Position numbers and translations under genes: made by a program
Part shown: positions 4,311-17,382 of the stretch, in pieces
Layout: every line of letters starts with the position of its first letter
Position numbering within the stretch: position 1 is the first letter of the stretch
Source of the DNA: Yersinia frederiksenii ATCC 33641
GTDB taxonomy: Bacteria; Pseudomonadota; Gammaproteobacteria; Enterobacterales; Enterobacteriaceae
Length of the DNA: 41,687 nt
Assembly: GCF_000754805.1 (NCBI RefSeq)
Contig: NZ_KN150732.1
Location: 1-41,687 of the forward strand
Direction of reading: 5' to 3'
The notes under the pieces: generated by a model
What the model saw: the letters and a program-made list of their open reading frames with translations, nothing else
What the model was told of the DNA's origin: nothing
The model's database searches: none

Positions 4311-6502
4311 GCCGCCACCCTCCAGATACACAGCTCTGGCATATTCGCCCTTACCAGTGCCTCGGCAAAGGGAGGCGGTACTGCATTACCACACCTTGCC
4401 ACCTGCTCAGATTTAGGCCAGATTGTGCCGTCAATATCCCGGTCAATAATGTAATCTGGCGGGAACCCGCTGGCGTTGTACAGCTCGCGGGCAATCAACA
4501 TGCGCATGCATATATCAACGATGATGTATTCGCCCACAGATAGATATTGTGGTCGTGGCGCGGGGAATAAATGCCAGTCGTCCGGTAAATCGCTGAAATG
4601 ATCCACCAGTCGTGCGCAGTTCCATGCGTTGTAGCGCTGCTTGTCGGTCAGTGGTTCGGCATCAAGATTGCTTTCTACCAAGCCAAAACGTTCTTTGGTT
4701 GTCACAGCATGTATCGGCTCTGATAAATCCACCGCGCCGCCAGTGCCGTAATACTTGGTCAGAAATGCGTTTACCAGTCCGACATGATTACCGCCCGCGG
4801 TTAAAGTCGGTACCGGTTCGGTGATGGGTTTACCATCGCGACATGTACCACGCAGTTGTACCAGGTGAGATGTACAAAGCGCATGGTGATCAACCGTGGT
4901 GATGGTGTGTAATGGCTCGTTAATATCGATGCCTGCACCGGTATAATTGCCGCCATAATGTTTTACCAGATGAGCGGCCACCATTCCCATTGCATGACCA
5001 TTACCACCGGGGCGAATCGATGTACCGGCCGTGATAGTCGATAATGGCTCATCACATTGTTGGCCTATAGCGCCGGTCCTAAATTTGGTTATATGCGGTG
5101 CCAGTATTGCACTGGCTAACTGGCTTTTACCGCCCCCACCCGCCGTAACGGTACCCAGTGGAGTATTGATATCATTTGCCGTGCTGTTGCCGAACTGACG
5201 CACAACCACCGGCGCAGCGATAGCAAAACCATGTGTTCTAGTGATTGTTTGTAACGGGTCACGCAATGATTGCCCACGGAAACAATCATATTTGGTTTTA
5301 GTGCTGGTGTGGTTGCACTTCACTGCATACGGCTCCAGCAACAAATGCTCAGCCTTGCTGGTGATAGTGGTTAGCGGCTGATCTAGCGGATACTGCAGAC
5401 GGTCGCCACCGAAACCGGTTTGGCCCAACCTCACAATAAATGGATCAGGGTTATCGATAACAAAGCGTTGCAGCCCTTTGACGATGCGCCGCAAGGTATT
5501 ATCAGCCAAATCCTTTTTGCGACCGAAAATAGAGCGTGTTGGCTGGCTCCAGTCGATACACTCGGCCGCCGTGCGCCAAGGTTGCAACATGCCAGAAAGC
5601 ACATCTGCAGAGTTTGGTGCGCCGTGGCTTGGCTCTGGCCATACAACCGACTCGCCGTCACAACGCCCAACCACAAACAACCGCTTTCTGATAGTGGGTG
5701 TACCGTAATCACAGGCTTTTAGCTCCCGGTGATCCACGTTATACCCCAACCCCGAAACCAGTTTCACCGCCTCAGGACTATTGATATCTATCTTCAAGAA
5801 TTCACATACTTCTGCTAGTGCCGGGTGATTGCCATCAATACCGGTACCTAGCATGCCAATAAACGCCTTGAACGTTTCACCTTTACGGGCTGGATCAGGT
5901 CGGTGATTACCCTCACTATCCGTTAACAATGGCCCCCAGCCGCGAAACTCTTCGACATTTTCCAGCATCAGAAAACGTGGGCGAACTGCCAGCGCCCAGC
6001 GTAATACCACCCAGGCTAAACCACGAATTTCTTTCTTAACTGGCGTGCCACCCTTAGCTTTGGAGAAATGGCGGCAATCAGGACTGAACCAGCCAAGCAA
6101 TACCGGCAGACCGCCGGTAGATATCAGCGGGTCGACACTGAAAATATCCTCAGGATAATGCAACGTTCGCGGGTGATTAATGGCATGCATCGCCATGGCT
6201 ACCGGATTATGGTTCATCGCGATGTGTGGTTCATAGCCTAATGCTTGCTTGATTCCCTCGCAGCTCCCACCGCCACCAGCGAACCCAACGACAACCAGAC
6301 CATCCTGCAAATCAGGTCGTGCAACTGTAATTTCTTTGCGCCGCGCCCATGCATGAGCCGCCTTTTGAATGTTGCGCGGATCTTCCCGCGTCAAAAACAT
6401 TTCGTTCATCTTGGCCAGTAGCTGCTGTTGCTCTGACTCACTCATTGGGTGAACAGGAATGACTGACGAGGCGCATTGCTGAACTTCAGTAGGCCAGATC
6501 AT
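4307..6502 (-). CDS. DNA cytosine-C5 methyltransferase with tandem-repeat insert
   Basis: This 731-residue enzyme has the C5-methyltransferase motifs in order: VVGFAGGGGS (residues 71-80, SAM binding), SPDCRHFSKA with the catalytic Cys143, ENVEEF (181-186), a QxRxR-like region around YGTPTIRKR (266-274), and CGNAVPPP (about 704-711, motif X). Motif IV is variant, PDC instead of PPC. Between motifs VIII and IX, residues about 355-605, lie seven tandem units of 32-44 residues, each ending in a P-(L/V/I)-x-(T/A)-(I/V/L)-T box. The unit ends fall near 376, 416, 448, 486, 530, 563 and 596. This is where the target recognition domain normally lies, so the repeats may read DNA. The gene overlaps both neighbours by 4 nt. 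Confidence 0.9.
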   Translation of the reverse strand: MIWPTEVQQCASSVIPVHPMSESEQQQLLAKMNEMFLTREDPRNIQKAAHAWARRKEITVARPDLQDGLVVVGFAGGGGSCEGIKQALGYEPHIAMNHNPVAMAMHAINHPRTLHYPEDIFSVDPLISTGGLPVLLGWFSPDCRHFSKAKGGTPVKKEIRGLAWVVLRWALAVRPRFLMLENVEEFRGWGPLLTDSEGNHRPDPARKGETFKAFIGMLGTGIDGNHPALAEVCEFLKIDINSPEAVKLVSGLGYNVDHRELKACDYGTPTIRKRLFVVGRCDGESVVWPEPSHGAPNSADVLSGMLQPWRTAAECIDWSQPTRSIFGRKKDLADNTLRRIVKGLQRFVIDNPDPFIVRLGQTGFGGDRLQYPLDQPLTTITSKAEHLLLEPYAVKCNHTSTKTKYDCFRGQSLRDPLQTITRTHGFAIAAPVVVRQFGNSTANDINTPLGTVTAGGGGKSQLASAILAPHITKFRTGAIGQQCDEPLSTITAGTSIRPGGNGHAMGMVAAHLVKHYGGNYTGAGIDINEPLHTITTVDHHALCTSHLVQLRGTCRDGKPITEPVPTLTAGGNHVGLVNAFLTKYYGTGGAVDLSEPIHAVTTKERFGLVESNLDAEPLTDKQRYNAWNCARLVDHFSDLPDDWHLFPAPRPQYLSVGEYIIVDICMRMLIARELYNASGFPPDYIIDRDIDGTIWPKSEQVARCGNAVPPPFAEALVRANMPELCIWRVAA

Positions 6503-7005
6503 TGCGCCCCCTCACGTAGTCTTGCTGCGAAATCAAGAATATTGGAAATCTCGCCTGTATCTGCCATTACACCAACGTCAAAAGCTTGTACGTGACGGTG
6601 CTGCGCAAATTTTTCAACACCCCCCGCCTCCACATCATTAAGAGCCAGAATGGTTGCAGGGACACTAATTACTTCGTATAGCGCCTCAAATGCATCTTCT
6701 TCATAGTCGCCACATGAAGAGATGCCATCTACCGTATTCAGATGCCCCCTGTTGTAACCGGCGTTATATACATGGACGCAGGCTTGTTGGAGTGCTGCGT
6801 TCTCGGCAACAATCACATTATATTTCCCCTGCCACTCCAAACACTCCCGCTCGTAGTGCTTTGCTGTGCGCCGGTTCTTATTAGCTGATGCCACCAACTC
6901 CGCTATACGGTCAGCGATGCCGTTTAACACCTCACTTTCACGTGGTTCCACTCTTTCCGCTGCTGAACGAATTGCAGCAATCATGCCATCGGTTGATATA
7001 TTCAT
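6499..7005 (-). CDS. Hypothetical early protein, possibly Ea22-like
   Basis: This 168-residue protein has a long charged helix near residues 35-75 (KNRRTAKHYERECLEWQGKYNVIVAENAALQQA), probably coiled coil. Its second half, with ISVPATILALNDVEAGGVEKFAQHR, recalls the C-terminus of Ea22-type proteins from lambdoid early regions. That resemblance is weak and the function is unknown. The start ATG 7005 is preceded by GAGGCGAGACCAA, a one-base variant of the repeated initiation cassette of this genome. Its stop overlaps the cytosine methylase start (ATGA). Confidence 0.6.
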   Translation of the reverse strand: MNISTDGMIAAIRSAAERVEPRESEVLNGIADRIAELVASANKNRRTAKHYERECLEWQGKYNVIVAENAALQQACVHVYNAGYNRGHLNTVDGISSCGDYEEDAFEALYEVISVPATILALNDVEAGGVEKFAQHRHVQAFDVGVMADTGEISNILDFAARLREGAQ

Positions 7006-7253
7006 TTGGTCTCGCCTCTGTGGTCTCTGCGGTCACGCCAGTAATTTAAGCGCTCTTTAAAAAACTCTCGGTAATGCACCGGTACCCGTTCAATCGCTTC
7101 AAGTACATGAGCGCGGTTGGTCCTGCGCTCGTACAGGTTTTTGATTAAGCCGCTGGCTCTCAAATCAAGATTTAGCTTTTCTTGGTATTCCTGAGGCCAG
7201 AGGCAAATGTTGTACGGGAGTCCGGGCGGGAGATAATCCGATTGCCCGGTCAT
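7002..7253 (-). CDS. Hypothetical early protein, 83 residues
   Basis: This small soluble protein has a proline-rich start (SDYLPPGLPYNICLWPQEYQ) and a basic second half (YERRTNRAHVLEAIERVPVHYREFFKERLNYWRDRRDHRG). The start ATG 7253 has GGGAG 9-10 nt upstream, inside the end of the preceding gene, and the stop overlaps the next start by 4 nt. I do not recognise a family. The close packing and overlaps show that it belongs to the early operon. Confidence 0.6.
   Translation of the reverse strand: MTGQSDYLPPGLPYNICLWPQEYQEKLNLDLRASGLIKNLYERRTNRAHVLEAIERVPVHYREFFKERLNYWRDRRDHRGETK
7006..7018 (-). promoter_or_regulatory. Initiation cassette copy, variant GAGGCGAGACCAA
   Basis: This element sits directly before ATG 7005 on the minus strand and differs by one base from GAGGCAAGACCAA. 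Upstream on the transcript, 7029-7038 forms a GCG-TGAC-CGC hairpin, again showing TGAC in the loop. Confidence 0.6.
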
Positions 7254-7257
7254 GGTA

Positions 7258-7638
7258 TTAACTCCCCATGCCTACCGTGCTCATCAGTTGATTTATCCGA
7301 GATACTCGCAAGCAGTACGCCAGCTCCTTGTCATCAAATGGCATTCTGGCGGGCTTGGTTCGGGGTTCGCTTTTGTTGCGTTTTACTTGCGTGTCAGAGA
7401 ATCGGAAAAAATCCTCTGAGATACTGTTGAGGGTGTATTGAGTCTTTCGACCATTGCGGCGGGTAATGTCTGCGTGGGGTGATCGAACCATACCCTGTAC
7501 TCGGTAGCGCAAAACGCTAATCGGCATTTCAGCATTAGGAAATTTTAAAGTAATAGCCTCGATAATCTGGCTGTAGTTCATGCTTTGGCCCAGCATAACC
7601 GCTGCCAATTCACGGGTAGTTAGTTCACGTTTTTTCAT
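7258..7638 (-). CDS. Hypothetical early protein, probably DNA-binding
   Basis: This 126-residue basic protein begins with a helix-rich segment, TTRELAAVMLGQSMNYSQIIEAITLKF, followed by PISVLRYRVQGMVRSP, which looks like a helix-turn-helix or winged helix. A Lys/Arg-rich middle (RRNGRKTQYTLN, QVKRNKSEPRTKPAR) follows. It stands directly after the helicase gene, where small replication accessory proteins are common; that role is inference. ATG 7638 follows the GAGGCAAGACC initiation cassette immediately, which fixes the start. Confidence 0.6.
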   Translation of the reverse strand: MKKRELTTRELAAVMLGQSMNYSQIIEAITLKFPNAEMPISVLRYRVQGMVRSPHADITRRNGRKTQYTLNSISEDFFRFSDTQVKRNKSEPRTKPARMPFDDKELAYCLRVSRINQLMSTVGMGS

Positions 7639-7649
7639 GGTCTTGCCTC
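7639..7649 (-). promoter_or_regulatory. Initiation cassette copy, GAGGCAAGACC-ATG
   Basis: On the minus strand GAGGCAAGACC abuts ATG 7638. The transcript upstream (7667-7679) can form CGC-CTGACCA-GCG, with loop CTGACCA, between the helicase stop and this ribosome site. Confidence 0.7.
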
Positions 7650-7682
7650 TTTTTTGGTTACTTAAACGCTGGTCAGGCGCGG

Positions 7683-9056
7683 TTAAAATTTTGGTGTTGA
7701 ATAGTGTTTTTCTTTGGCCGGTGGCCTTGATGCCTCTTTTGCCATTCGGCTGGCTTCTTTTGCCACCAGTTGATCCACCGGTAGAAAGTGGCCGTTTTTA
7801 AATTCCTGATAAACGGTACCAGGCTCGCCAAATCGGTTTTTGGTTACTATGGCCTCAGCAAATCTTGCTGCCGGACTATCTGCGTTATAAACCGCTTCTC
7901 GATACAGCATGATGATGCTGTCGGCGTCCTGCTCGATTGAACCTGAGTCCCTGAGGTCGGAACTGATTGGCCTGCGGCTACCTGGTGGCCGTTCATCCAC
8001 TTTTCGCGACAACTGGCTTAGTGCAAAAATCGGGGTGTTTATCCGACCGGCCAGCGTTTTTAATCCGCGTGAAATTATTCCGATCGACAGGTCATTACGC
8101 TCCGCCTTTGGTTTCGTAATCAGGCCAAGGTAATCAACCATCACCATTCTCAGTTTCGGGTACCGGCGCTTGTGCGTTTCTGCGATAGCCCGTATCTGAT
8201 CGATGGTTAGCTCACTGGCATCAACGATCCAAATATCACGACCATTCAATGCCTGTAGCGCGGAGTTAATACGCGCCCAGTCCTCATCACATAACGTTTT
8301 AGGGTCGCGTAATTTAGACACTGGCAAGTTACCAGCACCGGCAACGGAACGCTCAACCATCTGTAGGGAGGCCATTTCCATACTGAATATCAGCGCACCA
8401 CCGCCGTTCTGTGTAGCACCCTCAACAATCTTTAATGCAAACTCAGTCTTACCCATCCCCGGACGCCCAGCGATGACAACCAAGTCCTGAGGGTTAAAAC
8501 CGCCCGTTATTGCATCCAGCTCGACAATGCCGCTTTGCAGGTTCATCGACTCAATCTCACCATTCATGCGCTTATCGAGCATATCCATGTAGTTGGGTAA
8601 CAAATCGTTCAGATGTACGGGGATGATGCCGCCGCTGTCTGCCGTCATATCGATCAGTTGTGTTACCGCACCCTGTATTACCTGATCGCGCTGTTCCTGA
8701 TTGTTAGCCCCTCGGATGCCGTCAGCAGCGGTCTGGAATAATGCGGTCATGGTTCGGCTATACCAGGTCTTACGGGCATGTGCGGCATATCCTTTCAGAT
8801 TCGCTACGTTTCCCGGCATACGGACGATTTCAGACAGAGTGGCCAGACTACTGCCGCCCAATGCCTCACTGACAAACAGGACATCGATCAACCCTTTAGT
8901 CAGTGCCTGCTTTTTAATTTCCGCATACGCAGAACGGTATATTCTTATGCTGAATGCTTCCTCTGGCAGTGTGGCAATCACCTCCAGTGCATCGGGGGTA
9001 GAACCGCCATAAAGCAGACCAGATAAAATTGCTGCTTCCAATTCTTGAGGCTTCAT
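7683..9056 (-). CDS. Replicative DNA helicase, DnaB-like
   Basis: This 457-residue hexameric-type helicase should unwind DNA ahead of the replication fork. It has an N-terminal DnaB-like domain (about 1-105) and a RecA-like ATPase domain: Walker A GRPGMGKT at 197-204, ALIFSMEMA (221-229), Walker B LRMVMVDYLGLI with Asp308, then SQLSRKVDERPPGSRRPISSDLRDSGSIEQDAD, the typical DnaB loop and arginine region. Its length is close to that of cellular DnaB. It overlaps the initiator gene upstream by 4 nt (ATGA), so the two are made together. Carrying its own helicase, the phage probably needs only host primase and polymerase. Confidence 0.93.
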   Translation of the reverse strand: MKPQELEAAILSGLLYGGSTPDALEVIATLPEEAFSIRIYRSAYAEIKKQALTKGLIDVLFVSEALGGSSLATLSEIVRMPGNVANLKGYAAHARKTWYSRTMTALFQTAADGIRGANNQEQRDQVIQGAVTQLIDMTADSGGIIPVHLNDLLPNYMDMLDKRMNGEIESMNLQSGIVELDAITGGFNPQDLVVIAGRPGMGKTEFALKIVEGATQNGGGALIFSMEMASLQMVERSVAGAGNLPVSKLRDPKTLCDEDWARINSALQALNGRDIWIVDASELTIDQIRAIAETHKRRYPKLRMVMVDYLGLITKPKAERNDLSIGIISRGLKTLAGRINTPIFALSQLSRKVDERPPGSRRPISSDLRDSGSIEQDADSIIMLYREAVYNADSPAARFAEAIVTKNRFGEPGTVYQEFKNGHFLPVDQLVAKEASRMAKEASRPPAKEKHYSTPKF

Positions 9057-10093
9057 AGCGCACCATCACGGGTTTTTCTTAAGACTTCCGGTTTCATCAG
9101 ATAATCAAAGTTTGCCCGCCAGCCTGCCCCATCATCACCACCGAAATAAAACACGGTTGCCTGTCCGCGAAAGGCTTCGAAGTAGCTCTGGAACGCTTCA
9201 AGGTCTTTGGTTTTGAGGTATTGGAGTAATTCGCGGATGGCGTGTTTACGGTCCTGATCGATTTCAGCCGGTGGCAAAACATCGCTGAATACAAGGTTAT
9301 ACGCAGTAATGACCTCATCGCAATCAATCCGCCCAGCAGACTCAGACCATGCACGGGCATCAGCCAGATAACCATCGAACCGGTTTACACGGCAGATATT
9401 CGCAGGTTTGGCATACTTGCCGTTGCGGGGTTTCCAGGTATTTACTACCCAGAGGGCCACTAATTTCAAATCAGCCAGCGCGTAGGCTTTGCGTGATTTC
9501 GTTGCCGTCAGCAAGGTTTCGAATGGGCTAGAATCTTCACACCGGGTATGGGTGAGTTCGTTGTAATACGCCAAAGCCCTTTCAGCGTCAGCGAGAGTAT
9601 TTTCGGTTTCCCCTTGAGGGGTAAGGGGTGTTTTATTCTTTGTAGTATTCTTTGTAGTATTCTCTTGTAACATTTGGTCATTCTGACTAGATGTGATCTT
9701 GTCATTCTGACCTGCTCCCAATTGGTCATTTTGACCAGATGCATTTGTAGAATTAAGCAACTCCAATTGGTCATAATTTATCGAATACCACTTAGTGCGG
9801 TTATAGGGATCACTGAGCAACACTTTATGTAACTGACCAACTGAAATTAGTTTCATTTCCAGCAGGTTTGCCAACGTGCGTTTAATCGTACTATCAGACC
9901 AAAAGCCTAATTCATCGGCCCATTCAGCCGCCGATTTATAAAACCACTTCCGGCCTTCATGACGGTGATCCGACCGACATAGCCAATAATGAATTTGCTG
10001 AACGAGTATGGCTTCATTGAGGCCAATCTCTTTTGCAAGCGAGGGTAGTACTTGCAGCGGAGGTTCATTAATTAACAGCTTGGCGCTATTCAT
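9053..10093 (-). CDS. Replication initiator (lambda O / DnaD-like) containing the origin
   Basis: The protein has 346 residues from ATG 10093, chosen because GGGGG stands 7 nt upstream; a TTG start at 10099 is also possible. The N-terminal 110 residues look like a winged-helix replication domain (LPSLAKEIGLNEAILVQQIHYWL, WADELGFWSDSTIKRTLANLLEMKLI). A low-complexity linker with three QND units and NTTKNTTKN follows at about 118-155. The C-terminal part (ALAYYNELTHTR to NICRVNRFDGYLADARAW) resembles the conserved phage C-terminal domain of such initiators. The linker is encoded by DNA repeats that look like iterons, so the origin probably lies inside the gene, as in lambda O. The helicase follows with a 4-nt overlap. 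Confidence 0.85.
   Translation of the reverse strand: MNSAKLLINEPPLQVLPSLAKEIGLNEAILVQQIHYWLCRSDHRHEGRKWFYKSAAEWADELGFWSDSTIKRTLANLLEMKLISVGQLHKVLLSDPYNRTKWYSINYDQLELLNSTNASGQNDQLGAGQNDKITSSQNDQMLQENTTKNTTKNKTPLTPQGETENTLADAERALAYYNELTHTRCEDSSPFETLLTATKSRKAYALADLKLVALWVVNTWKPRNGKYAKPANICRVNRFDGYLADARAWSESAGRIDCDEVITAYNLVFSDVLPPAEIDQDRKHAIRELLQYLKTKDLEAFQSYFEAFRGQATVFYFGGDDGAGWRANFDYLMKPEVLRKTRDGAL
9610..9841. other. Predicted replication origin: iterons plus AT-rich tandem repeats
   Basis: Inside the initiator gene the plus strand carries TTGGTCATTCTGAC (9674-9687), TTGTCATTCTGACC (9699-9712), TTGGTCATTTTGACC (9722-9736) and a half-copy TTGGTCATAA (9767-9776). They start 25, 23 and 45 nt apart, about two helical turns or a multiple. 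An inverted relative, AACTGACCAAC, lies at about 9831-9841. Next to them is a T-rich stretch with the 12-bp tandem repeat ATTCTTTGTAGT (9635-9658), a good unwinding element, and the palindrome CCCCTTGAGGGG (9610-9621). This copies the layout of the lambda origin. Function is inferred. Confidence 0.7.
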
Positions 10094-10095
10094 CT

Positions 10096-10320
10096 TCAAA
10101 CCCCCAGCGCTTCCGCTATTTGCCGACAGGCAGACTGATAATCGTCAGCTGATAGGTTCATCAGGCGCAGGTCTGCTTTCTTCTGCTCGTACTGTTCCCA
10201 CACGCTATATGCGGCAACCTGACGCCCTGCAAAAATTGGCTCTATGTCAGCTATGCTTGCCGGTTGCCCGTTCAGCCGGAACCCGTTGCAGTAGGTAATT
10301 TTATCGATAGATGTAAGCAT
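10096..10320 (-). CDS. Hypothetical early protein, 74 residues
   Basis: This small acidic protein (MLTSIDKITYCNGFRLNGQP, later AAYSVWEQYEQKKADLRLMNLS) was not assigned to a family. It lies between the CII-like regulator and the replication initiator. Its start ATG 10320 directly follows GAGGCAAGACCA, and its stop overlaps the possible TTG start of the initiator. It is probably an early regulatory or replication accessory protein by position only. Confidence 0.55.
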   Translation of the reverse strand: MLTSIDKITYCNGFRLNGQPASIADIEPIFAGRQVAAYSVWEQYEQKKADLRLMNLSADDYQSACRQIAEALGV

Positions 10321-10332
10321 TGGTCTTGCCTC
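10321..10332 (-). promoter_or_regulatory. Initiation cassette copy, GAGGCAAGACCA-ATG
   Basis: On the minus strand GAGGCAAGACCA abuts ATG 10320. Nine nt upstream on the transcript, 10342-10354 reads CGG-CTGACCA-CCG, the same CTGACCA loop with a 3-bp stem as at 7667-7679. Confidence 0.7.
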
Positions 10333-10336
10333 TGTT

Positions 10337-10801
10337 TTATACGGTGGTCAGCCGGTGGTGTTGTGGTCTGATTGCGTGAAGTGCCGCAACAGCGCCCGAT
10401 ATTCTTTGTGACATGTCACAGCCATCTAATAGAACAGCGCTAATTGCTGCGGCAAACTCTCTGCTGGCAATCGAAACCAAATAATTAACGGTCTCGCCAT
10501 TTACTCTGGCCCGCCGTTCTGCTGGGAGCGCCGCTTTAAGTACCGGTGATAATTCCAAGACCTTTCGCATTGATGCTTTTGAATCCCCGCGCAACCAACG
10601 GAATAACTGCTGCCGGTTGTTGTTGATAGACTTCCAATCAGCGTTGCCCTCCTCGTCTTCAATGGGAGTGAGGCGTACTGAATCCGTACTGATATTAAGC
10701 AAGAAAAACATTCTGCTGATCTCGATAGCTACATGCTCCTGCCCCCGTTCTGCTGCCCACGCCTGTACTTCAGCTTTAAGGGCGTTAACTTGTTGTTCCA
10801 C
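10337..10801 (-). CDS. ydaT: YdaT-like regulator (CII position)
   Basis: The protein has 154 residues from GTG 10801, with AGGAGA 6-7 nt upstream. The central part QQLFRWLRGDSKASMRKVLELSPVLKAALPAERRARV matches the YdaT family of Rac-type prophages, called a toxin because overexpression harms the cell but more recently described as a CII-like regulator. It follows the YdaS-like gene, as in Rac, so the two are probably the Cro and CII of this switch. A perfect 14-bp palindrome, TGTGACATGTCACA, lies inside the gene and encodes CDMSQ. Confidence 0.7.
   Translation of the reverse strand: MEQQVNALKAEVQAWAAERGQEHVAIEISRMFFLLNISTDSVRLTPIEDEEGNADWKSINNNRQQLFRWLRGDSKASMRKVLELSPVLKAALPAERRARVNGETVNYLVSIASREFAAAISAVLLDGCDMSQRISGAVAALHAIRPQHHRLTTV
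10407..10420. repeat. Palindrome copy B, TGTGACATGTCACA
   Basis: Perfect 14-bp palindrome inside the ydaT-like gene, read as Cys-Asp-Met-Ser-Gln. The identical 14 bases occur at 12536-12549. Confidence 0.85.
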
Positions 10802-10861
10802 GTTGCGTCTCCTGTCGCAGGAAATTGATTATTGATAATCAGATTTTAAAAGTGGGTTTGG

Positions 10862-11047
10862 TTAAGCTGCGCTCTGATACATCGATGGGTCATATTTCAA
10901 TTCGCCATGAGTAATGCGTTCAATCTTCATTGCTTGTTTCTCAGGGATAATTTCCCCCCAGCGACAAACTGCCGGGTGTTTTATTCCTAAGGCCATCGCG
11001 GTATTTACTACACCGCCAAAAAACTTGACTACCTCTTTCTTGTTCAT
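10862..11047 (-). CDS. YdaS/Cro-like repressor
   Basis: The protein has 61 residues from ATG 11047, chosen because AGAGGAG stands 5 nt upstream; the frame is open further upstream but runs across the operator. MNKKEVVKFFGGVVNTAMALGIKHPAVCRWGEIIPEKQAMKIERIT is a helix-turn-helix of the YdaS_antitoxin/Cro type. It lies divergent to the CI gene, the Cro position, and is the first gene of the minus-strand early operon. It should bind the shared operators and turn down cI expression once lytic growth starts. Confidence 0.85.
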   Translation of the reverse strand: MNKKEVVKFFGGVVNTAMALGIKHPAVCRWGEIIPEKQAMKIERITHGELKYDPSMYQSAA

Positions 11048-11073
11048 AGGGACTCCTCTTTGATCATAAAGCG

Positions 11074-11138
11074 AAGGTAACAAAAGGTACATAACAATGC
11101 AAACACTTTTCACCACACTATCGCGTAACATTGGTTAC
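11074..11138. promoter_or_regulatory. Early promoter pR (minus) with CI/Cro operators
   Basis: On the minus strand TTGCAT (11102-11097) and TACCTT (11079-11074) are 17 nt apart and drive the Cro gene. Two operator-like repeats occur: GTAAC-AAAA-GGTAC (11077-11090), between the promoter boxes and touching the -10, and the perfect GTAAC-ATTG-GTTAC (11125-11138), which ends at the base before the cI start codon. The same site in the same relation to a promoter is found at 11880-11893. Confidence 0.75.
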
Positions 11139-11801
11139 ATGAAAACTGAAATGAATGACCGCATCCGTATTCGCAGACTGCAACTGGATCTCACTCAAGT
11201 CCAATTAGCCAAGGCTATTGGAGTGAGTCGAGTATCAGTTACGAAATGGGAGTCAGGGATAACCAAACCAGATGGAGAGAATCTTCACCGACTGGCGCAA
11301 GTACTTTCATGTACGCCAGAATGGTTACTCTATGGTACCGGGGATTTACGCCAGGTTGATGATACAAAAATCAAGCCTCTCACCGCCGTGCCTAATGCCA
11401 TACCTGTTATTTCATCAGTTCAAGCAGGCACTTGGACTGATACATATTCAGCGGCCCGAATTTCTGATGTTCTTAGATGGTGTACTACCACAGTGAAGGT
11501 TTCTGAAAACGCTTTTGCCTTAGATGTTCGTGGTGAGTCGATGACAAACCCCAATGGGTCACCTTCTATACCTGAAGGTTCTACAGTCATCGTCGAGCCT
11601 AACTATGGTTCTATTGAAGATTTATACGGCAAGATAGTGGTGGCCATTATTGATGGTAGTTCCGAGGCCACAATTAAAAAGCTAGTCGTCGATGGACCTA
11701 ATAAATATCTCATGCCATTAAACCCTAACTTTAGACCGATCGAAATCAACGGCAATTGCCGTATTCTCGGTAGAGTAGTACAGGTCACCCAAGACCTGTA
11801 A
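11139..11801 (+). CDS. cI: CI-like repressor with S24 autoproteolytic domain
   Basis: The protein has 220 residues from ATG 11139. The frame is open further upstream but crosses the operator, so the start beside the operator is preferred; a start at 11151 is possible. The N-terminus is a classic XRE helix-turn-helix (LTQVQLAKAIGVSRVSVTKWESG). The C-terminal domain has the cleavage pair A96-G97 in SSVQAGTW, Ser134 in RGESMTN and a lysine at 180/181 in ATIKKL, the S24/LexA autocleavage set. It should keep the prophage silent and be cleaved with help of activated RecA. No ribosome site is visible, so the cI message may be leaderless as from lambda pRM. Confidence 0.92.
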   Translation: MKTEMNDRIRIRRLQLDLTQVQLAKAIGVSRVSVTKWESGITKPDGENLHRLAQVLSCTPEWLLYGTGDLRQVDDTKIKPLTAVPNAIPVISSVQAGTWTDTYSAARISDVLRWCTTTVKVSENAFALDVRGESMTNPNGSPSIPEGSTVIVEPNYGSIEDLYGKIVVAIIDGSSEATIKKLVVDGPNKYLMPLNPNFRPIEINGNCRILGRVVQVTQDL

Positions 11802-11807
11802 TCAATA

Positions 11808-11830
11808 GCCCATCACCTCGGTGGGTTTTC
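11808..11830 (+). terminator. Possible terminator after cI
   Basis: A short stem, CCCATC / GGTGGG with a 5-nt loop and one G-T pair, is followed by TTTTCTT just after the cI stop. It is weak but well placed. Confidence 0.5.
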
Positions 11831-11844
11831 TTACGCCCTTAAAT

Positions 11845-11896
11845 GTAACTTATGGAACATCTATCTATTGACATGGTAGGTAACTATAGGTACATT
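11845..11896 (+). promoter_or_regulatory. Early promoter pL-like (plus) with two operators
   Basis: TTGACA (11868-11873) and TACATT (11891-11896) are separated by 17 nt. The operator GTAAC-TATA-GGTAC (11880-11893) covers the spacer and the first three bases of the -10. A second, GTAAC-TTAT-GGAAC (11845-11858), lies upstream. The arrangement mirrors pR on the other side of cI, so one repressor can shut both early operons. Confidence 0.8.
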
Positions 11897-11982
11897 CACG
11901 ATATCAACACGGCACAGCAGCCGATAAGCAGTTTAGGTTTAGTACGTTCTGGCAGCCGGGAAGACGGCAAAAGAGGAAGGTT

Positions 11983-12135
11983 ATGAAAGCAACTAAAAAG
12001 AAAACGAGTAAATTCCAGATCCAATATCGCTACTGTGGAATGTGGGCTAACGGAAATACTTACTCAACGCGCAAAGAAGCTGATGATTACGCACGTAATA
12101 CTGGCCGTGATTATCAAGTAGTCAAAGTACGGTAA
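11983..12135 (+). CDS. Small basic protein, first gene of the pL-like operon
   Basis: This 50-residue protein starts at ATG 11983 behind AGAGGAAGG. It begins MKATKKKTSKFQIQYRYCG and ends RDYQVVKVR. It is strongly basic at the N-terminus and contains KEADDYARNTGRDYQV, probably a helix and strand of a compact fold. I do not recognise a family. As first gene of a repressed early operon it could be an antitermination or host-takeover factor, but nothing in the sequence shows this. Confidence 0.65.
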   Translation: MKATKKKTSKFQIQYRYCGMWANGNTYSTRKEADDYARNTGRDYQVVKVR

Positions 12136-12246
12136 CAACAGAATTTGGGTTGTTGCATTGGAGGAGAACCCCGCGCCAAGGCTCGGCATGATTACCACAG
12201 TGCAGCAGCCCAAACCAATAACGTAGCCACGACGGGAAAGTGTGGT

Positions 12247-12259
12247 GAGGCAAGACCAA
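12247..12259 (+). promoter_or_regulatory. Orphan initiation cassette GAGGCAAGACCAA
   Basis: Exact copy of the repeated cassette with no start codon downstream: an ATC stands where ATG would be expected. Possibly the remains of a lost gene start. Confidence 0.6.
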
Positions 12260-12313
12260 AGATCTGACCCGCTGGCCCGGCGTAATGGGCACCAAATTAC
12301 AGACGTAAAAAAA

Positions 12314-12327
12314 CCCACCTAAGTGGG
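12314..12327 (-). terminator. Hairpin with T-run, minus direction
   Basis: The stem CCCAC / GTGGG with a 4-nt loop is followed on the minus strand by seven T; in the plus direction only CTTCTTT follows. It could stop antisense transcription or attenuate the pL-like operon. Confidence 0.5.
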
Positions 12328-12368
12328 CTTCTTTACCCCGGGTCACCGACCAAAGTTAACCGGGAAGC

Positions 12369-12404
12369 TAACGGGGACCAACCCGTTAACAGAGGCAAGA
12401 CCAA
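12369..12404 (+). promoter_or_regulatory. GACCAA-loop hairpin followed by initiation cassette
   Basis: A perfect 7-bp stem, TAACGGG (12369-12375) / CCCGTTA (12382-12388), presents the loop GACCAA. Three nt later comes GAGGCAAGACCAA (12392-12404). No ATG follows directly; the next gene starts at 12449 with its own AGGAG. The same pairing of elements occurs at 15544-15579. Confidence 0.7.
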
Positions 12405-12448
12405 CGGCTTACGCCATCAATCTTAAAAACAGTATATCAGGAGTTGCT

Positions 12449-12784
12449 ATGACAGCACTACAGATAACCACCCAGCTATACATCCATGTAAATCCGCATT
12501 CAACAATGAAAGCTAACCGCTTTATTGTGAGTACCTGTGACATGTCACAATCAACACCAGCATATGCGTTACTTGAAACCCGCGAAATCACTATCGCTTT
12601 CGACGAACCCGATCCATTTGAAATCATCAGTAAGCAGGTTGATTCACTACGCGCTCAAAAAGAGCGGCTGGCGGCTGAATCATATCGGCATCAGTTGCTA
12701 ATTGATGATCAGATTCAGGCATTGCTATGCATCGAGCACAGTACTCCATCGAACGTATCTGATGATACCGAAATTCCTTTTTAA
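12449..12784 (+). CDS. Hypothetical early protein, 111 residues
   Basis: The start ATG 12449 is set by CAGGAG 6 nt upstream. The protein begins MTALQITTQLYIHVNP, has a middle with TCDMSQ encoded by palindrome copy C, and a charged helical second half (EIISKQVDSLRAQKERLAAESYRHQLLIDDQIQ) that is probably coiled coil. No family was recognised. It is the second likely gene of the pL-like operon and precedes the recombination gene. Confidence 0.6.
   Translation: MTALQITTQLYIHVNPHSTMKANRFIVSTCDMSQSTPAYALLETREITIAFDEPDPFEIISKQVDSLRAQKERLAAESYRHQLLIDDQIQALLCIEHSTPSNVSDDTEIPF
12536..12549. repeat. Palindrome copy C, TGTGACATGTCACA
   Basis: Identical to copy B and again read as Cys-Asp-Met-Ser-Gln, inside an unrelated gene on the opposite strand. 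Confidence 0.85.
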
Positions 12785-12825
12785 TTAGTCATACATCAAA
12801 GACCAAGATCCGTTTAAAAACCAAA

Positions 12826-12839
12826 GAGGCAAGACCAAC
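12826..12839 (+). promoter_or_regulatory. Initiation cassette copy, GAGGCAAGACCAAC-ATG
   Basis: Exact cassette directly before ATG 12840 of the RecE-N/annealing-protein fusion. An AAGACCAAG motif lies about 30 nt upstream, but no stable hairpin was found. Confidence 0.7.
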
Positions 12840-15038
12840 ATGACTGTATTTATTTGTTTATTCGAGCCGAAAAAAGCGGCTCTCAAAAATGGGGCTATAC
12901 CACTGGTTATAGCTCTGGAAGCCATAAATAAGAAAATGGCATCCGCACTGGCCATCGGGAAATTATGGGAAGCCTACCCCGCTGCCGGTGATAACTTTGC
13001 TGATCCGAAAATCTGTGAGGATACTGTCGGGCAACCGCGCCCTGCTGTGGGTGATTTCGATGAGCAGTTCGCACAGGATAATACCTTTGATGGCAAAGTA
13101 TGGACGCCAAATACCGTGGCATCGCCAGAGGATGAGGATGATAACGACGGCGACGAACAAGGCGATGATTCTGGCTTGGTGAACTACGCCAAGTTGGGCA
13201 TTGATGTCAAAGTTGGCAAGATCCTAATGTATGGCTTGCGTGACATTGGTACACACGAACTATCACTAGTGTATGACCTGATTAACGACGACGAGGGTGA
13301 TGCTGGGCTGCGTTCAATTATAACGGCGTTGGCTGGTATACCGGCTGTAGGCGCAATGTATCAGGAGTCGGTCAAAGAACTGGTCGACGCCATTAATGTG
13401 AAGTTTCCTAAGACCCCTCAATTTCCTGAAGTACAGAAGTTTGCCCAAAAATGGGTTGATGAACCCAATAAGCGGGACGAGTTAACTGGAACGAAGAAAG
13501 TTACCCGTATAAACACACCCACGCCTGATGCGCCAATTAAACGCGGCTTTGACCACACCTATAAAACGCTTGATCTCGAAGTCGCCCTCGCCTTGGTACC
13601 CACTGTTTTGAACTGTTGGGAAATCTACTCAGCAGAAATGAGGCAGGCAAAAGAGCTGATGGATAGCAATGATGATGCCTGGCGCAAGTGGTCTACCGAA
13701 TTGCGCGTTCGCAGCGATGCGTTGTCTATTCCGCGTGAAACCATCTTTGAGATGATCCGCGCGGGTAAAGAAAAACCTATCTTCCTAACCGATGCCGCAG
13801 CCAGGAAAGAATTTATCTCACAATATTTAGCCGTTAAAGGCCCACAGCCCGCAGTTAAAAATCTAGGCGACGGCAAGTTCTCTATTGATGGTCTGGTCGG
13901 TGGTGAACAGCCAGCGGCAAACAGTGAAACAAAACTGGCATTGGTTGCCAATTCTGGGCCAGAAACTGAAACAAAACCGCCAATTGTTGCAACAGAACAG
14001 GAAAACCCTTCACAGGAACCTATCTCCGATAATGCCGCTCAACAGGCTAAAGAGACATTGGATAAGTTGGGTTACAGCGTTTATGCCTCAACTGATGAGA
14101 AGCCAGCAGAGATAATTGAGACGGCACAGCAAAATGACGTTGCTACCGTAGCGGTTACGGCTGATGAGTTCCAACACCGCGCCGGGTTGATTGAGCAAGA
14201 GATTGCGCAGAAATCCCCTGCGGAGCAAGAAAACCTGCATATCTGGAAATCAGTACAACGCACAGATCCACGCTTTACCAAACCTGTAGAGGGTGCGGGA
14301 TATGTAGCTACAAGCATTAACGCTGAATATATGTTTATGCGAGCCACCGAAGTATTCGGCCCAGTTGGTGAGGGTTGGGGCTATACCATTCTTGAAGAAA
14401 AGATGCTTTCAGGCGCGCCAATGTCCGAGGCTATTTACGACGATAACAAGAAATATGTTGGTAACCGGCTTATTCGTGATGCCGATGGCACATTGATATG
14501 CGAACAAAATCACTCGATCAAAATTCAATTCTGGTACTCAGTCGAGGGTGATGTGCGTGGCGAGATCGAAAGTTACGGAGCCACCCCTTACATGTATAAA
14601 ACCAATAAAGGAATTAAGGCAGATAGCGAGGTAATCAAAAAGAGCCTCACTGACGCCATTAAGAAAGCATTATCTATGCTGGGCTTTAGCGCCGACGTAT
14701 GGCTCGGCATGCACGATAACCCCGAGTATAAAGCAGAAAATGACATTGAGTTTGCTATCAAGAACGCCAGTGAAAAAGCTGGTGACTCAGTTCGTCTGCG
14801 CAAAGAACTGGATGAGAAGTTAACCAAAGTAGGCAATACCATTACGAGCGCCGTCACCACCAACGAAGTGAACAAGGTTTATAGCACCATTGCGCGTGAA
14901 GTTGATGTACATCGCAAAGATGCCGAAGCCAAAGCCGATCACGAACACGCCAATTACCTCAAAACCCGCCTGCTTGCGTTACACCGCTTAACTGAAAAAC
15001 GGGTTGCTGAACTTACCGCACAGGAGCCGACATTATGA
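12840..15038 (+). CDS. Fusion of RecE-like N-terminal domain and Rad52/ERF-like annealing protein
   Basis: This protein has 732 residues. The first 85 or so (KAALKNGAIPLVIALEAINK to FDGKVWTP) resemble the N-terminal domain of E. coli Rac RecE, a part with no nuclease activity. An acidic stretch (about 98-111), a middle region, and a linker (about 370-420) follow. From about 466 there is a single-strand annealing domain: FGPVGEGWGY (about 505), then a central beta region, and SLTDAIKKALSMLGFSADVW (about 601-620), typical of phage annealing proteins. The C-terminus is charged and helical. The RecE exonuclease domain is missing and no separate exonuclease gene is visible. It probably anneals DNA ends for recombination or circularisation. 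The next gene overlaps by 4 nt. Confidence 0.75.
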   Translation: MTVFICLFEPKKAALKNGAIPLVIALEAINKKMASALAIGKLWEAYPAAGDNFADPKICEDTVGQPRPAVGDFDEQFAQDNTFDGKVWTPNTVASPEDEDDNDGDEQGDDSGLVNYAKLGIDVKVGKILMYGLRDIGTHELSLVYDLINDDEGDAGLRSIITALAGIPAVGAMYQESVKELVDAINVKFPKTPQFPEVQKFAQKWVDEPNKRDELTGTKKVTRINTPTPDAPIKRGFDHTYKTLDLEVALALVPTVLNCWEIYSAEMRQAKELMDSNDDAWRKWSTELRVRSDALSIPRETIFEMIRAGKEKPIFLTDAAARKEFISQYLAVKGPQPAVKNLGDGKFSIDGLVGGEQPAANSETKLALVANSGPETETKPPIVATEQENPSQEPISDNAAQQAKETLDKLGYSVYASTDEKPAEIIETAQQNDVATVAVTADEFQHRAGLIEQEIAQKSPAEQENLHIWKSVQRTDPRFTKPVEGAGYVATSINAEYMFMRATEVFGPVGEGWGYTILEEKMLSGAPMSEAIYDDNKKYVGNRLIRDADGTLICEQNHSIKIQFWYSVEGDVRGEIESYGATPYMYKTNKGIKADSEVIKKSLTDAIKKALSMLGFSADVWLGMHDNPEYKAENDIEFAIKNASEKAGDSVRLRKELDEKLTKVGNTITSAVTTNEVNKVYSTIAREVDVHRKDAEAKADHEHANYLKTRLLALHRLTEKRVAELTAQEPTL

Positions 15039-15535
15039 GCAATACAGCAATCGCATTAGCCGCAGACCTTTTCAAACTGCAACAGTTGGTTGAGTCCTCA
15101 GAGGAACTCACGCCAGAAATGATCGCCGATACGCTTGAGGGGTTAGAGGGTGCCCTGGGGGATAAGCTGGATGCAACCTACGTCTTTGTTCGCAATCTTG
15201 AAGGGCAAGCAAAGACCTGTGATGAAGAAGCGAAGCGCCTAGCTGATCGTAAGCGATCGTTCGAGAACCGGGCAAAGTCGATCAAGCAGTATGTGCTTAG
15301 CTGTTTACTGGCTGCTGATATGAACACATTGAAAACGCCGTATAACACATTCACCGCTCGTAAAGGTGTGGCTAATGTGGTCATCGATAACGAGGATTTG
15401 TTGCCAAGTGAACTGGTAACGGTACAGACCATCGTAGCGCCGGATAAAAAGGCCATCAAAGAAGCCATAGAAAATGGCGTTGATGTTAAAGGTGCGCATA
15501 TCGAAATAGGTAGTCGTAGCCTGCAAGTTCGATAA
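15035..15535 (+). CDS. Gp157-family protein
   Basis: This 166-residue protein matches the siphovirus Gp157 family: an N-terminal helical half with ALGDKLDATYVFVRNLEGQAKTCDEEAKRLADRKRSFENRAKSIKQYV, probably coiled coil, then LKTPYNTFTARKG and LLPSELVTVQTIVAPDKKAIKEAIENG near the end. Members usually stand beside recombination genes; in some streptococcal phages Gp157 has been linked to resistance to superinfection. The start ATG 15035 overlaps the stop of the recombination gene, so both are made together. Confidence 0.85.
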   Translation: MSNTAIALAADLFKLQQLVESSEELTPEMIADTLEGLEGALGDKLDATYVFVRNLEGQAKTCDEEAKRLADRKRSFENRAKSIKQYVLSCLLAADMNTLKTPYNTFTARKGVANVVIDNEDLLPSELVTVQTIVAPDKKAIKEAIENGVDVKGAHIEIGSRSLQVR

Positions 15536-15543
15536 TTTATCCA

Positions 15544-15579
15544 GCCCCGGACCAACGGGGCATTATTGAGGCAAGACCA
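15544..15579 (+). promoter_or_regulatory. GACCAA-loop hairpin followed by initiation cassette
   Basis: The perfect stem GCCCCG (15544-15549) / CGGGGC (15556-15561) presents the loop GACCAA. Six nt later comes GAGGCAAGACCA (15568-15579), directly joined to ATG 15580. The stem differs completely from that at 12369 while the loop is identical, which points to selection on the structure and loop. Confidence 0.75.
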
Positions 15580-15753
15580 ATGCTAAGAAAGACACAAAAG
15601 CGGCACGAACTGGCCTATATAACACTCCCAGACGGAAGAACGGGAACCATCCACACCGATCGCCGCTGTGATGTTCACTATGATTTTCCAACTGATGTGC
15701 GCATTAGTAGCACACCACCGCAGCCAACCGCTGAAAAGGAGGCCAGGCAATGA
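15580..15753 (+). CDS. Small hypothetical protein, 57 residues
   Basis: The start is fixed by the initiation cassette touching ATG 15580. The protein begins MLRKTQKRHELAYITLPDGR and ends TAEKEARQ. It is basic, with DRRCDVHYDFPTDV in the middle. No family was recognised. The stop overlaps the next start (ATGA), suggesting coupled translation. Confidence 0.6.
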   Translation: MLRKTQKRHELAYITLPDGRTGTIHTDRRCDVHYDFPTDVRISSTPPQPTAEKEARQ

Positions 15754-15905
15754 TCCGTTCTCAACTGGCCGTGTTCTTTATCACAGCAGGAGCAGCCTTA
15801 ACTCTAATTTATGGGGCTGAGGTCAGCGCTGTAGCCGCGTTTTCATTTGGTACCGGTTTGGCTGTGGGGTGCTGGAGGCGTAGAAAAGTACCAACCAAAA
15901 GTTGA
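15750..15905 (+). CDS. Small membrane protein, 51 residues
   Basis: This protein starts at ATG 15750 with GGAGG upstream inside the previous gene. It has two short hydrophobic segments, LAVFFITAGAALTLIYG and VAAFSFGTGLAVGCW, and a basic C-terminus (RRRKVPTKS), so it is probably a two-pass inner-membrane protein with a cytoplasmic tail. Such small early membrane proteins in phages often act in exclusion or host control, but no specific role is shown here. Confidence 0.6.
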   Translation: MIRSQLAVFFITAGAALTLIYGAEVSAVAAFSFGTGLAVGCWRRRKVPTKS

Positions 15906-15941
15906 TTTTGCTTAATCAGAAATAATCAAGCTGCCGCGCTA

Positions 15942-15979
15942 GCATGATGGTAAACCAACACCAGGGAAAACCATCATGC
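15942..15979 (+). promoter_or_regulatory. Perfect 10-bp hairpin covering the start codon at 15976
   Basis: The arms GCATGATGGT (15942-15951) and ACCATCATGC (15970-15979) are exact reverse complements around an 18-nt loop. The right arm contains the ATG of the next gene (15976-15978), and the loop contains its AGGG ribosome site. In RNA this would hide the start codon until something opens the stem. Confidence 0.75.
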
Positions 15980-16182
15980 AGCAATGGCAACCAGGCAAGC
16001 GTCTATTGACCGACTTCGATATTAAGATCGGTAAATTATCAGCCAGCGTACGAAAGCAGCAACTCACCGACCAAGATATACAGCGGGCCTGTTCTGCGAC
16101 CGACAGAGCAATAACCCAAATGATACAGGGGCAAGACCATGAAAAACGACCACGACATAATCACCAAAGAGGAGATGATTGA
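15976..16182 (+). CDS. Hypothetical protein, 68 residues, start codon in a hairpin
   Basis: ATG 15976 follows AGGG by 9 nt. The sequence begins MQQWQPGKRLLTDFDIKIGK and contains SVRKQQLTDQDIQRACSATDRAITQMIQ, which could be a small helical DNA-binding fold. The end overlaps the DUF4224 gene by 44 nt. Position just before the excisionase-like gene suggests a regulator of integration or excision; this is inference. Confidence 0.5.
   Translation: MQQWQPGKRLLTDFDIKIGKLSASVRKQQLTDQDIQRACSATDRAITQMIQGQDHEKRPRHNHQRGDD
16128..16138 (+). promoter_or_regulatory. Initiation cassette copy, GGGGCAAGACC-ATG
   Basis: One-base variant of the cassette directly before ATG 16139. The preceding 40 nt include a weak CTGT / ACAG stem with GACCG in the loop. 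Confidence 0.6.
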
Positions 16183-16372
16183 GCTGACCGGGTATCATAT
16201 CCCTTCAAAGCAATGTGAAGCACTTAAAAATGCTGGGATATTTTTTATAATCCGTAGAGATGGCCGTCCGCAAACTACATGGGGCCATTTTCAAGATCCC
16301 CTATCTCTTCGTCATACCCCCAAAGCAGCGACTGAAATATCTGTTGAGCCTAACTTCGGAGCATTAGATTAA
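16139..16372 (+). CDS. DUF4224 protein, excisionase position
   Basis: This 77-residue protein contains TKEEMIELTGYHIPSKQCEALKNAGIFFIIRRDGRPQTTW, the DUF4224 pattern (L-T-G-Y-x-x-x-S-K-Q, then a GRP turn). Members are small winged-helix-like proteins encoded just before phage integrases and often take the place of Xis. The start is fixed by the initiation cassette. The last base of its TAA stop is the first base of the integrase ATG. Confidence 0.75.
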   Translation: MKNDHDIITKEEMIELTGYHIPSKQCEALKNAGIFFIIRRDGRPQTTWGHFQDPLSLRHTPKAATEISVEPNFGALD

Positions 16373-17382
16373 TGGGGAGAAAACGCAGTAACCCACAAGA
16401 CAACTGGATGCCTCCACGAACATGCAGGGGGCGTTCTGCATTTGAATTTAAGCCTAAGCTCGGGGGAACGATAAGGCTCTGCGGATTCGATGCCAGTCCG
16501 GCCCAAGTATGGGCAGCGTATGAGGCGTTAATAAATGATAAACAGAATGAAAATGTCTTTAATTGGCTTGTTAGTCGATTCTTTCTATCTGCCGATTTTA
16601 TAGAGCTAGCTGTTGAGACACAGAAAGATTATCGGAAATATGCGGTAAAAGTATTATCTGTTTTCGGCGAGGTCCATCCAGATGCAATAAAACCTGAGCA
16701 TATTCGCAAGTATATGGATAAGCGTGGCGTAAAAAGTCGCACTCAGGCTAATAGGGAAAAAGCCTTTACATCCCGTGTCTTTCGATGGGCCTATGAGAGA
16801 GGGATGGTGAAAATGAACCCATGCAAAGGCGTGAAGCAATTTAAAGAAACCAGCCGTACACGTTATATAACCAATAAAGAATACGATGCGCTTTATCAAG
16901 TTTCCCCGCCAGTAGTTCAGGTCGCAATGGAACTGGCATATTTATGCTGTGCACGACAAGCCGATATTTTAGGCATGAAGAAGAACCAACTAATTGATGA
17001 TGGGATCTTAATACAACAAAGTAAAACGGGTATTTCTCAAATCAAAGCATGGGGACCGCGTTTAACCGCAGTTATAAAGCTCGCCAGTCAACTACCGTTA
17101 AACAGAGGAATGAGCAGCATCTTTGTTATCCACCAACAATCCGGTGCCAGATATACAAGAGATGGTTTTAATAGCCGATGGCTGAAAGCCAAAGCGGAGG
17201 CAAAAGAGAAGTATCCAGAATTAGAGTTTAATTTCACTTTTCACGATTTGAAGGCAAAAGGAATCTCTGATTTAAGCGGATCGCTTTACGAAAAACAGGC
17301 GATATCAGGACACAAGAATGCAGCTCAAACAGCACGATATGATCGTAAAATTGCGATAGTGCCAGCGGTAGGAGACCAGTAA
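16372..17382 (+). CDS. int: Tyrosine integrase
   Basis: This 336-residue phage-type tyrosine recombinase has an N-terminal arm-binding region, a SAM-like core-binding domain (about 85-150) and a catalytic domain. Catalytic residues are Arg195 (CARQAD), Lys218 (QQSKTG), His291 (HDLK), His314 (SGHKN) and the nucleophile Tyr323 (ARYDRK). The usual second arginine of H-x-x-R is lysine (Lys294). The gene lies about 115 bp from a tRNA-Leu-derived attP core, so it should integrate the phage at that tRNA gene. It is the last gene of the pL-like operon, as in lambda. Confidence 0.93.
   Translation: MGRKRSNPQDNWMPPRTCRGRSAFEFKPKLGGTIRLCGFDASPAQVWAAYEALINDKQNENVFNWLVSRFFLSADFIELAVETQKDYRKYAVKVLSVFGEVHPDAIKPEHIRKYMDKRGVKSRTQANREKAFTSRVFRWAYERGMVKMNPCKGVKQFKETSRTRYITNKEYDALYQVSPPVVQVAMELAYLCCARQADILGMKKNQLIDDGILIQQSKTGISQIKAWGPRLTAVIKLASQLPLNRGMSSIFVIHQQSGARYTRDGFNSRWLKAKAEAKEKYPELEFNFTFHDLKAKGISDLSGSLYEKQAISGHKNAAQTARYDRKIAIVPAVGDQ

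Follow-up and report, generated by a model that had tools for sequence, protein, structure and literature searches.

Why does the same short cassette stand before six start codons distributed over both early operons of a phage? The question is raised by a contig of Yersinia frederiksenii ATCC 33641, 41,687 bases long, which was analysed in its entirety and is called the window below (the genome comprises 4.94 megabases in two contigs). To judge from head and tail genes recognised by eye, the window appears to be a temperate phage whose tail is contractile, and the closest named relatives of its exonuclease/annealing protein belong to Pectobacterium phage ZF40 and Stenotrophomonas phages BUCT708/709. 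The answer that we consider very probable is that a phage RNA of ~118 nucleotides (nt), encoded on the minus strand, represses the translation of early genes in trans through pairing between its seed and the cassette.

The cassette GAGGCAAGACCA is present in exact form at six sites, 7649-7638(-), 10332-10321(-), 12247(+), 12392(+), 12826(+) and 15568(+), and with one mismatch at 7018-7007(-) (GAGGCGAGACCA) and 16128(+) (GGGGCAAGACCA). When up to two mismatches are allowed, the window contains 11 sites, compared to a mean of 2.62 in shuffled sequences, a count of 11 being reached in 0 of 100 shuffles; genome-wide, all six exact copies lie on the phage contig and none on the other contig. A start codon adjoins six of the copies, while those at 12247 and 12392 have none behind them. 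The initial annotation had reported the same bases before six start codons plus two orphan copies, and this arrangement is indeed present, six of its copies being exact and two carrying one mismatch. What it missed is a candidate small RNA (sRNA) gene lying opposite the orphan copy at 12392, with the following elements:

12307..12424, minus strand: proposed sRNA of ~118 nt, consisting of hairpin 1, seed, hairpin 2, hairpin 3 and terminator
12431..12436, minus strand: -10-like box TATACT of the RNA, seen in the sequence
12397..12424, minus strand: hairpin 1, with UUGGUC in its 3' arm (fold; covariation with U.G/G.U pairs)
12392..12404, minus strand: seed UUGGUCUUGCCUC, the plus strand of which is the orphan cassette
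12369..12388, minus strand: hairpin 2, whose loop UUGGUC reads GACCAA on the plus strand
12338..12364, minus strand: hairpin 3, with loop region UUUGGUCGG
12307..12328, minus strand: terminator-like GC hairpin with seven U after it on this strand

The seed is complementary to the Shine-Dalgarno (SD) sequence and spacer of six genes, with predicted duplexes of 12-13 base pairs (bp). The sites and their cofolding energies with the RNA are as follows:

10321..10332, minus strand: cassette of the 74-amino-acid (aa) gene 10320-10096 (phrog_2465), then overlapping O-like and DnaB-like starts; -30.3 kcal/mol
7638..7649, minus strand: cassette of gene 7638-7258 (phrog_4183); -17.8 kcal/mol
7007..7018, minus strand: cassette, with one change, of gene 7005-6499; -16.6 kcal/mol
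12826..12837, plus strand: cassette of the exonuclease/annealing gene 12840-15038, then an overlapping Gp157 gene; -16.9 kcal/mol
15568..15579, plus strand: cassette of gene 15580-15753 (phrog_2482); -10.7 kcal/mol
16128..16139, plus strand: cassette, with one change, of the excisionase-like gene 16139-16372, then an overlapping integrase-like gene; -15.9 kcal/mol

Cofolding was run on 12 chosen starts. The six targets gave -10.7 to -30.3 kcal/mol, versus -2.7 to -8.1 kcal/mol for five starts that the seed leaves uncovered (cII, O, dnaB, Gp157 and int); the strongest partner by far was the region of the 12449 start (-47.1 kcal/mol), because this region overlaps the complement of the RNA itself. 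A duplexfold run across 214 start regions was dropped, as it joined distant pieces.

The assignment of the structure to the minus strand relies on folding, on strand-specific wobble pairs and on the signals flanking the RNA. In the window, the fold energy is -60.3 kcal/mol (z -6.8) for the minus strand versus -36.3 kcal/mol (z -2.0) for the plus strand. We then considered 47 nonredundant leader contexts selected by a GACCAA hairpin plus cassette, a few of which were found with a pattern that includes the A-run. A terminator-like hairpin lies upstream in 41 of the 47 (two of them, L123 and L241, are probably not terminators), and beyond this hairpin the side read on the minus strand is the richer in T in 41/41 contexts; in contexts whose plus side lacks any T run (e.g. 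BUCT709 and L245), the minus side still displays at least four U. Wobbles in the leader stems read as G.U on the minus strand in 25 cases and on the plus strand in five. A -10-like box with 0-1 mismatch precedes the seed by 22-48 nt on the minus strand in all 40 leaders of a set from which six contexts judged to be non-leaders had been removed by hand and one dropped for its short flank.

Leaving out L241 as well and dropping L227 gave a set of 38 RNAs, 32 of which were aligned (L069, L231, L245, L298, L302 and L343 were omitted as near-copies or because of long inserts). Note that the seed and first-loop letters are invariant in this alignment partly through the selection of the sequences. 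Hairpin 1 contains a U.G pair in 28 of the 32 sequences and, at another position, a G.U pair in 20; such pairs are impossible on the plus strand, and the structure therefore belongs to the minus strand. The consensus fold reaches -34.84 kcal/mol on the minus strand versus -12.4 kcal/mol on the plus strand, and double changes affect 20 of the 30 pairs (154 cells versus 47.8 in shuffles). Conserved structure, a terminator-like end and a promoter-like box, the features expected of a base-pairing sRNA acting in trans, are thus found together on this strand.

A covariance model built for the RNA (called R1) was searched against 392 genomes of the family. The window sequence, itself a member of the model, is matched at 12423-12307(-) with 95.4 bits; 20 of the 392 genomes have a match at E <=1e-6, 14 of which reach at least 79 bits. 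Clusters of at least two cassettes within 15 kilobases (kb) exist in 10 of these genomes, and the RNA lies inside the cluster in 10/10, while 16 other genomes have single or unlinked cassette matches. In a class-wide search of 369 genomes, 17 besides the own genome were matched at 26-31 bits, and these were taken for terminators. Outside the family set, clusters of cassettes followed by ATG are found in many prophages among the matches listed: ZF40 contains five exact copies, BUCT709 four GAGGAAAGACCA copies and a leader hairpin whose stem is unrelated and whose loop is the same GACCAA, and the prophage of E. coli strain 44 seven GAGGAAAGACCA copies. The exact cassette was absent from four phages with a Rad52-like domain, VvAW1, AH02, HU1 and PMG1 (first 50 of 54 kb), and the one-mismatch cassettes of VvAW1 and PMG1 do not, by eye, precede a start.

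Phages in which the seed differs have start sites altered to match it. Several seed types are found: C, A, CAAAACC, AATAACC, TATGACC and others. The A and C types were compared with target position 5 left free, using sets that come from separate scans and are limited to the matches listed. The targets carry 275 A, 1 G and 0 C where the leader is of the A type, and 270 C, 1 T and 0 A where it is of the C type, counts that include redundant loci; the loci overlap, since some are fragments of the window or of a single phage, and L006, flagged as a leader, is in fact a target. After removal of redundancy, 66 A and 1 G remain for the A leaders and 51 C for the C leaders. Among the four genomes that have an RNA of at least 79 bits and no cluster, one (G012) is cut by a contig end and the other three carry other seeds, matched by the neighbouring start sites: GAGGCAAAACCA in G344; GAGGAATAACCA in G155 (seed copy AAGGAATAACCA); and TAGGAAAGACC, the last base of which varies, in G162, whose seed is UCGGUCUUUCCUA. 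Six weaker R1 matches (39-42 bits) include G031, G113 and G171, which carry seed UUGGUCAUACCUC and sites GAGGTATGACCA; the others are G266, G305 and G109. When five seed classes are tabulated against site classes without redundancy and leaving out G162, the diagonal holds 61, 64, 7, 3 and 7 cases (142) and the off-diagonal cells 4, of which the one in L248 is apparently a genuine target that carries a mismatch, the others appearing by eye to lie inside genes. On a tree of the neighbouring phrog_2479 proteins, in which G155 could not be placed and for which the program warns of long branches, the seed classes require at least three changes; joint changes of seed and sites therefore seem to have occurred more than once. 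An sRNA acting in trans would be expected to be complementary to separate targets and to change together with them, as is the case here. As read from the sequences, the minus-strand structure with its terminator-like end and -10-like box and the joint change of seed and sites appear well established, and the consequences drawn below are proposed on that basis.

We propose that the RNA (~12424-12307, on the minus strand of the right-operon leader) is made by the phage itself and that its seed UUGGUCUUGCCUC would pair with the cassette GAGGCAAGACCAA, i.e. the SD sequence and spacer of the six genes. Such pairing would hide the ribosome-binding site and decrease the translation of replication, exonuclease/annealing and excision genes; as the duplex spans both the SD sequence and the spacer, translation initiation should be blocked. 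In both operons the six targets come first in their chains of early genes, where each stop is overlapped or almost adjoined by the start that follows (10320 to 10099, O-like, to 9056, DnaB; 7638 to 7253; 7005 to 6502; 12840 to 15035; 15580 to 15750; 16139 to 16372), and these overlaps would lower, by translational coupling, the expression of the genes behind the targets as well. No cassette precedes cI, cro, cII or the 111-aa leader gene, so that one RNA could quiet the effectors while sparing the switch genes. The interpretation given in the initial annotation is right in part: its core idea, a translational regulon not described before that comprises early genes of both operons, is well supported. 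As for its actor, for which a protein or an sRNA had been envisaged, the evidence favours the sRNA, and the protein is disfavoured by the minus-strand evidence.

A second contact may involve hairpins located upstream of some targets:

15544..15561, plus strand: target hairpin with loop GACCAA and a perfect stem, upstream of 15568
7666..7680, minus strand: target hairpin gcgc-CTGACCA-gcgt, upstream of 7638
10342..10354, minus strand: small target hairpin cgg-CTGACCA-ccg, upstream of 10320

The two GACCAA-loop hairpins described as perfect at the outset are so, with stems of 7 bp (12369-12388, the leader) and 6 bp (15544-15561); the two small minus-strand stems with CTGACCA loops are also present, with just 4 bp upstream of 7638 and 3 bp upstream of 10320. 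In a set of 219 nonredundant target cassettes, drawn from the matches listed and including stray metagenome matches, GACCA occurs within 45 nt upstream in 95, versus 5% in shuffles; a stem of at least 4 bp surrounds it in 63 of these 95, versus 7% in controls, nearly always 13-30 nt upstream. The UUGGUC loops of the RNA would probably kiss the GACCA loops upstream of these targets. The prediction of a fixed loop on a changing stem holds where the hairpin is present (63/95); 124 of the 219 targets have no upstream GACCA.

This last figure is one of several that weigh against the proposed RNA or its mode of action. Two tests lent the proposal no help: wobbles in the target hairpins show no preference for the sense strand (11 GT versus 16 AC), and changes compatible with G.U pairing are not overrepresented where targets differ from the seed, as 31 single differences comprise 15 compatible ones, 5 incompatible transitions and 11 transversions. 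In the RNA of the window, the seed is predicted to be partly hidden by hairpin 1. A generic scan for promoters and terminators reports no sigma-70 promoter where the RNA begins, the -35 region there being poor. It reports the terminator hairpin on the plus strand alone, on which the T-run is interrupted; its absence from the minus-strand list may be due to pairing between the A-rich 5' side of the hairpin and the U run. Across relatives, the plus side too has at least five T out of eight in 28 contexts.

The joint change of seed and sites is not in itself decisive, since a protein of changing specificity that bound the leader and the targets, both of which would then be its sites, would lead to the same pattern; it is the strand evidence that tells RNA from protein. 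A protein that recognises GACCA in loops and at the ribosome-binding site, with the leader serving as its own control site or as a sponge, would follow the logic of CsrA. With CsrA/RsmA and T4 RegA, too, one regulator acts on many start sites, CsrA using loop and SD sites. It would account for GACCA being fixed in loops with changing stems at many targets and recurring in the leader and at start sites. A CsrA-like protein was our first working hypothesis; it was dropped on account of the terminator-like end on the minus strand, the -10-like box and the strand-specific wobbles, none of which it explains, any more than it explains the place and strand of a match to the isrB RNA family (see below). 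Moreover, CsrA and RegA are proteins with other motifs: a CsrA-type site has GGA in the hairpin loop and SD, while the fixed loop motif here is GACCA, and some seed classes (AATAACC, CAAAACC) alter most of the GACCA core itself. A scan of ten early proteins recognised no candidate RNA-binding protein, several of them belonging to families of no known function. Overall, we hold a protein regulator to be very unlikely.

An RNA that works mainly in cis on the right-operon leader, or as an activator, or in antitermination or replication, with trans repression a minor effect, is likewise very unlikely. The RNA is fully complementary to this leader, its strongest partner in cofolding, and the leader also contains boxB-like repeats; however, the sites are placed precisely at other genes' start codons and vary along with the seed, and the seed covers the SD sequence, an arrangement by which an sRNA normally blocks translation initiation. 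Extremely improbable, to our mind, is that the cassette is a mere good ribosome-binding site, or a linker for the recombination of phage modules, spread by descent. Cassettes do lie at gene borders, phages are mosaics whose modules recombine at boundary sequences, and the copies within one phage are alike. Yet a ribosome would need GAGG alone, whereas the spacers are conserved or altered as a set, in concert with a structured RNA on the opposite strand; the copy at 12392 has no start codon; and at least three class changes are required on the tree of the neighbouring protein, with its long-branch warnings.

The proposed phage RNA has a partial counterpart in isrB, an RNA family reported by 2008 (PMC2515195). 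The Rfam isrB model (RF01386) matches the window at 12394-12308(-) with 34.8 bits, just below the cut-off of 35, and a genome of the same genus (G392) with 38.4 bits, above it. The position, which counts in favour of our proposal, agrees with that of isrB, on the minus strand of the leader upstream of recE, with the small gene 12449 between the RNA and the exonuclease gene; in Salmonella, isrB-1 and isrB-2 adjoin sbcA on the opposite strand, according to the available part of the same source (PMC2515195). The IsrB RNAs of Gifsy-2/Gifsy-1 are likewise antisense, just upstream of recE/sbcA, and share the terminator and the UUUGGUCGG hairpin, and R1 gives 28.3 bits at the Gifsy-2 locus. By eye, however, this locus has neither the seed nor hairpins 1 and 2, and in a scan of the whole Gifsy-2 record none of the 23 early start regions listed has a cassette, which implies that isrB there lacks the target set of the window RNA. 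This null result counts against our proposal, as does the weak Hfq enrichment (2 versus 4 reads for isrB-1, none for isrB-2) given in the available part of PMC2515195; expression of IsrB-1 is reported for one strain, 4/74, in the accessible text of PMC7067206. IsrB may be a reduced or redirected form of the phage RNA, and no paper giving IsrB targets was found in the open-licence literature searched.

Other phage regulators resemble the proposed RNA in part. P4 CI RNA provides RNA-based immunity through loops pairing with phage mRNA, and both c4 and P4 CI RNAs are cut from the leader of the operon that they control. The window RNA is unlike them in that its structure lies on the strand opposite to the controlled operon and its sites at many starts. 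P1/P7 c4 RNA is similar to it as a case of RNA-based immunity in which loops pair with phage mRNA (PMC12197685, as are the next statements, within the portion available). P22 sar, which blocks translation initiation, and the antisense RNAs OOP and aQ of lambda are, like it, small phage RNAs acting on the phage's own mRNAs, each on one neighbouring gene, whereas the window RNA would face six genes in two operons through a repeated site. VpdS of phage VP882 and PreS of lambda are also phage sRNAs with several or distant targets but act on host mRNAs, VpdS also on phage mRNAs, and that portion mentions no repeated cassette for them; the phage sRNAs that it reviews act on single phage genes or on host genes, none through a repeated site. 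Prophage sRNAs are also the subject of PMC12803456 and PMC13192938, both consulted as partial texts. A literature search with the exact letters of the cassette returned, by titles and among the matches listed, no paper on the motif in phages; a term search of the ZF40 genome paper, in its available text, gave no hairpin, stem-loop, Shine-Dalgarno, promoter or terminator (PMC3391216), and megablast of window positions 6500-16500 gave no match among phages or plasmids.

Some further features of the leaders and of the window deserve mention. The second orphan copy is kept without a start codon and could be either a decayed second RNA gene or a target within the leader:

12247..12258, plus strand: second orphan cassette; weak R1 match at 12278-12165(-), 22.7 bits

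In L245, two copies of the RNA gene lie ~1 kb apart (11144-11258 and 12179-12317, 102.6 and 70 bits). A 50-aa open reading frame (11983-12135) lies before the leader in the window, and leaders of relatives (L013, L081, L168) contain, upstream of the terminator, CTGACAGCYCGGAAAGACGGGC repeats with a GC stem and a GAAAGA-like loop, which we take to resemble the lambda boxB/nut site. The leaders of BUCT709 and of the E. coli strain 44 prophage give Rfam RprA matches below the cut-off of 70, possibly a prophage copy of the host sRNA:

L252, 10650-10769, plus strand: RprA-like match, 50.2 bits
L260, 9369-9269, minus strand: RprA-like match, 48.3 bits

The perfect palindrome TGTGACATGTCACA occurs twice in the window, in the CII-like gene (10407-10420) and in the 111-aa leader gene (12536-12549), and may be the binding site of a phage regulator; the latter copy is ~100 bp upstream of the -10-like box of the RNA, and L252 and L260 have a copy at a similar distance. 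GTGACATGTCAC is present in 179 of 461 loci. Three GACCAA copies at 9674-9772(-) stand among repeats inside the O-like replication gene and are possibly origin iterons.

What would such an RNA do for the phage? That it holds back the early genes in lysogeny or superinfection is the most speculative part of our proposal. On a wider and tentative view, which we find possible but doubtful, it would be a second repressor that silences the early effectors and spares cI/cro/cII, the seed types would define orthogonal immunity groups in which a prophage blocks only superinfecting phages of the same type, and IsrB would be a shortened or redirected descendant. In the open-licence literature searched, we found no description of a single phage RNA directed at a ribosome-binding-site cassette that recurs in both early operons; the arrangement provides a lead for isrB, a family for which that literature yielded no targets. 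The natural and apparently orthogonal sets of sRNA and targets may also help to understand how a regulator and its many targets change specificity together.

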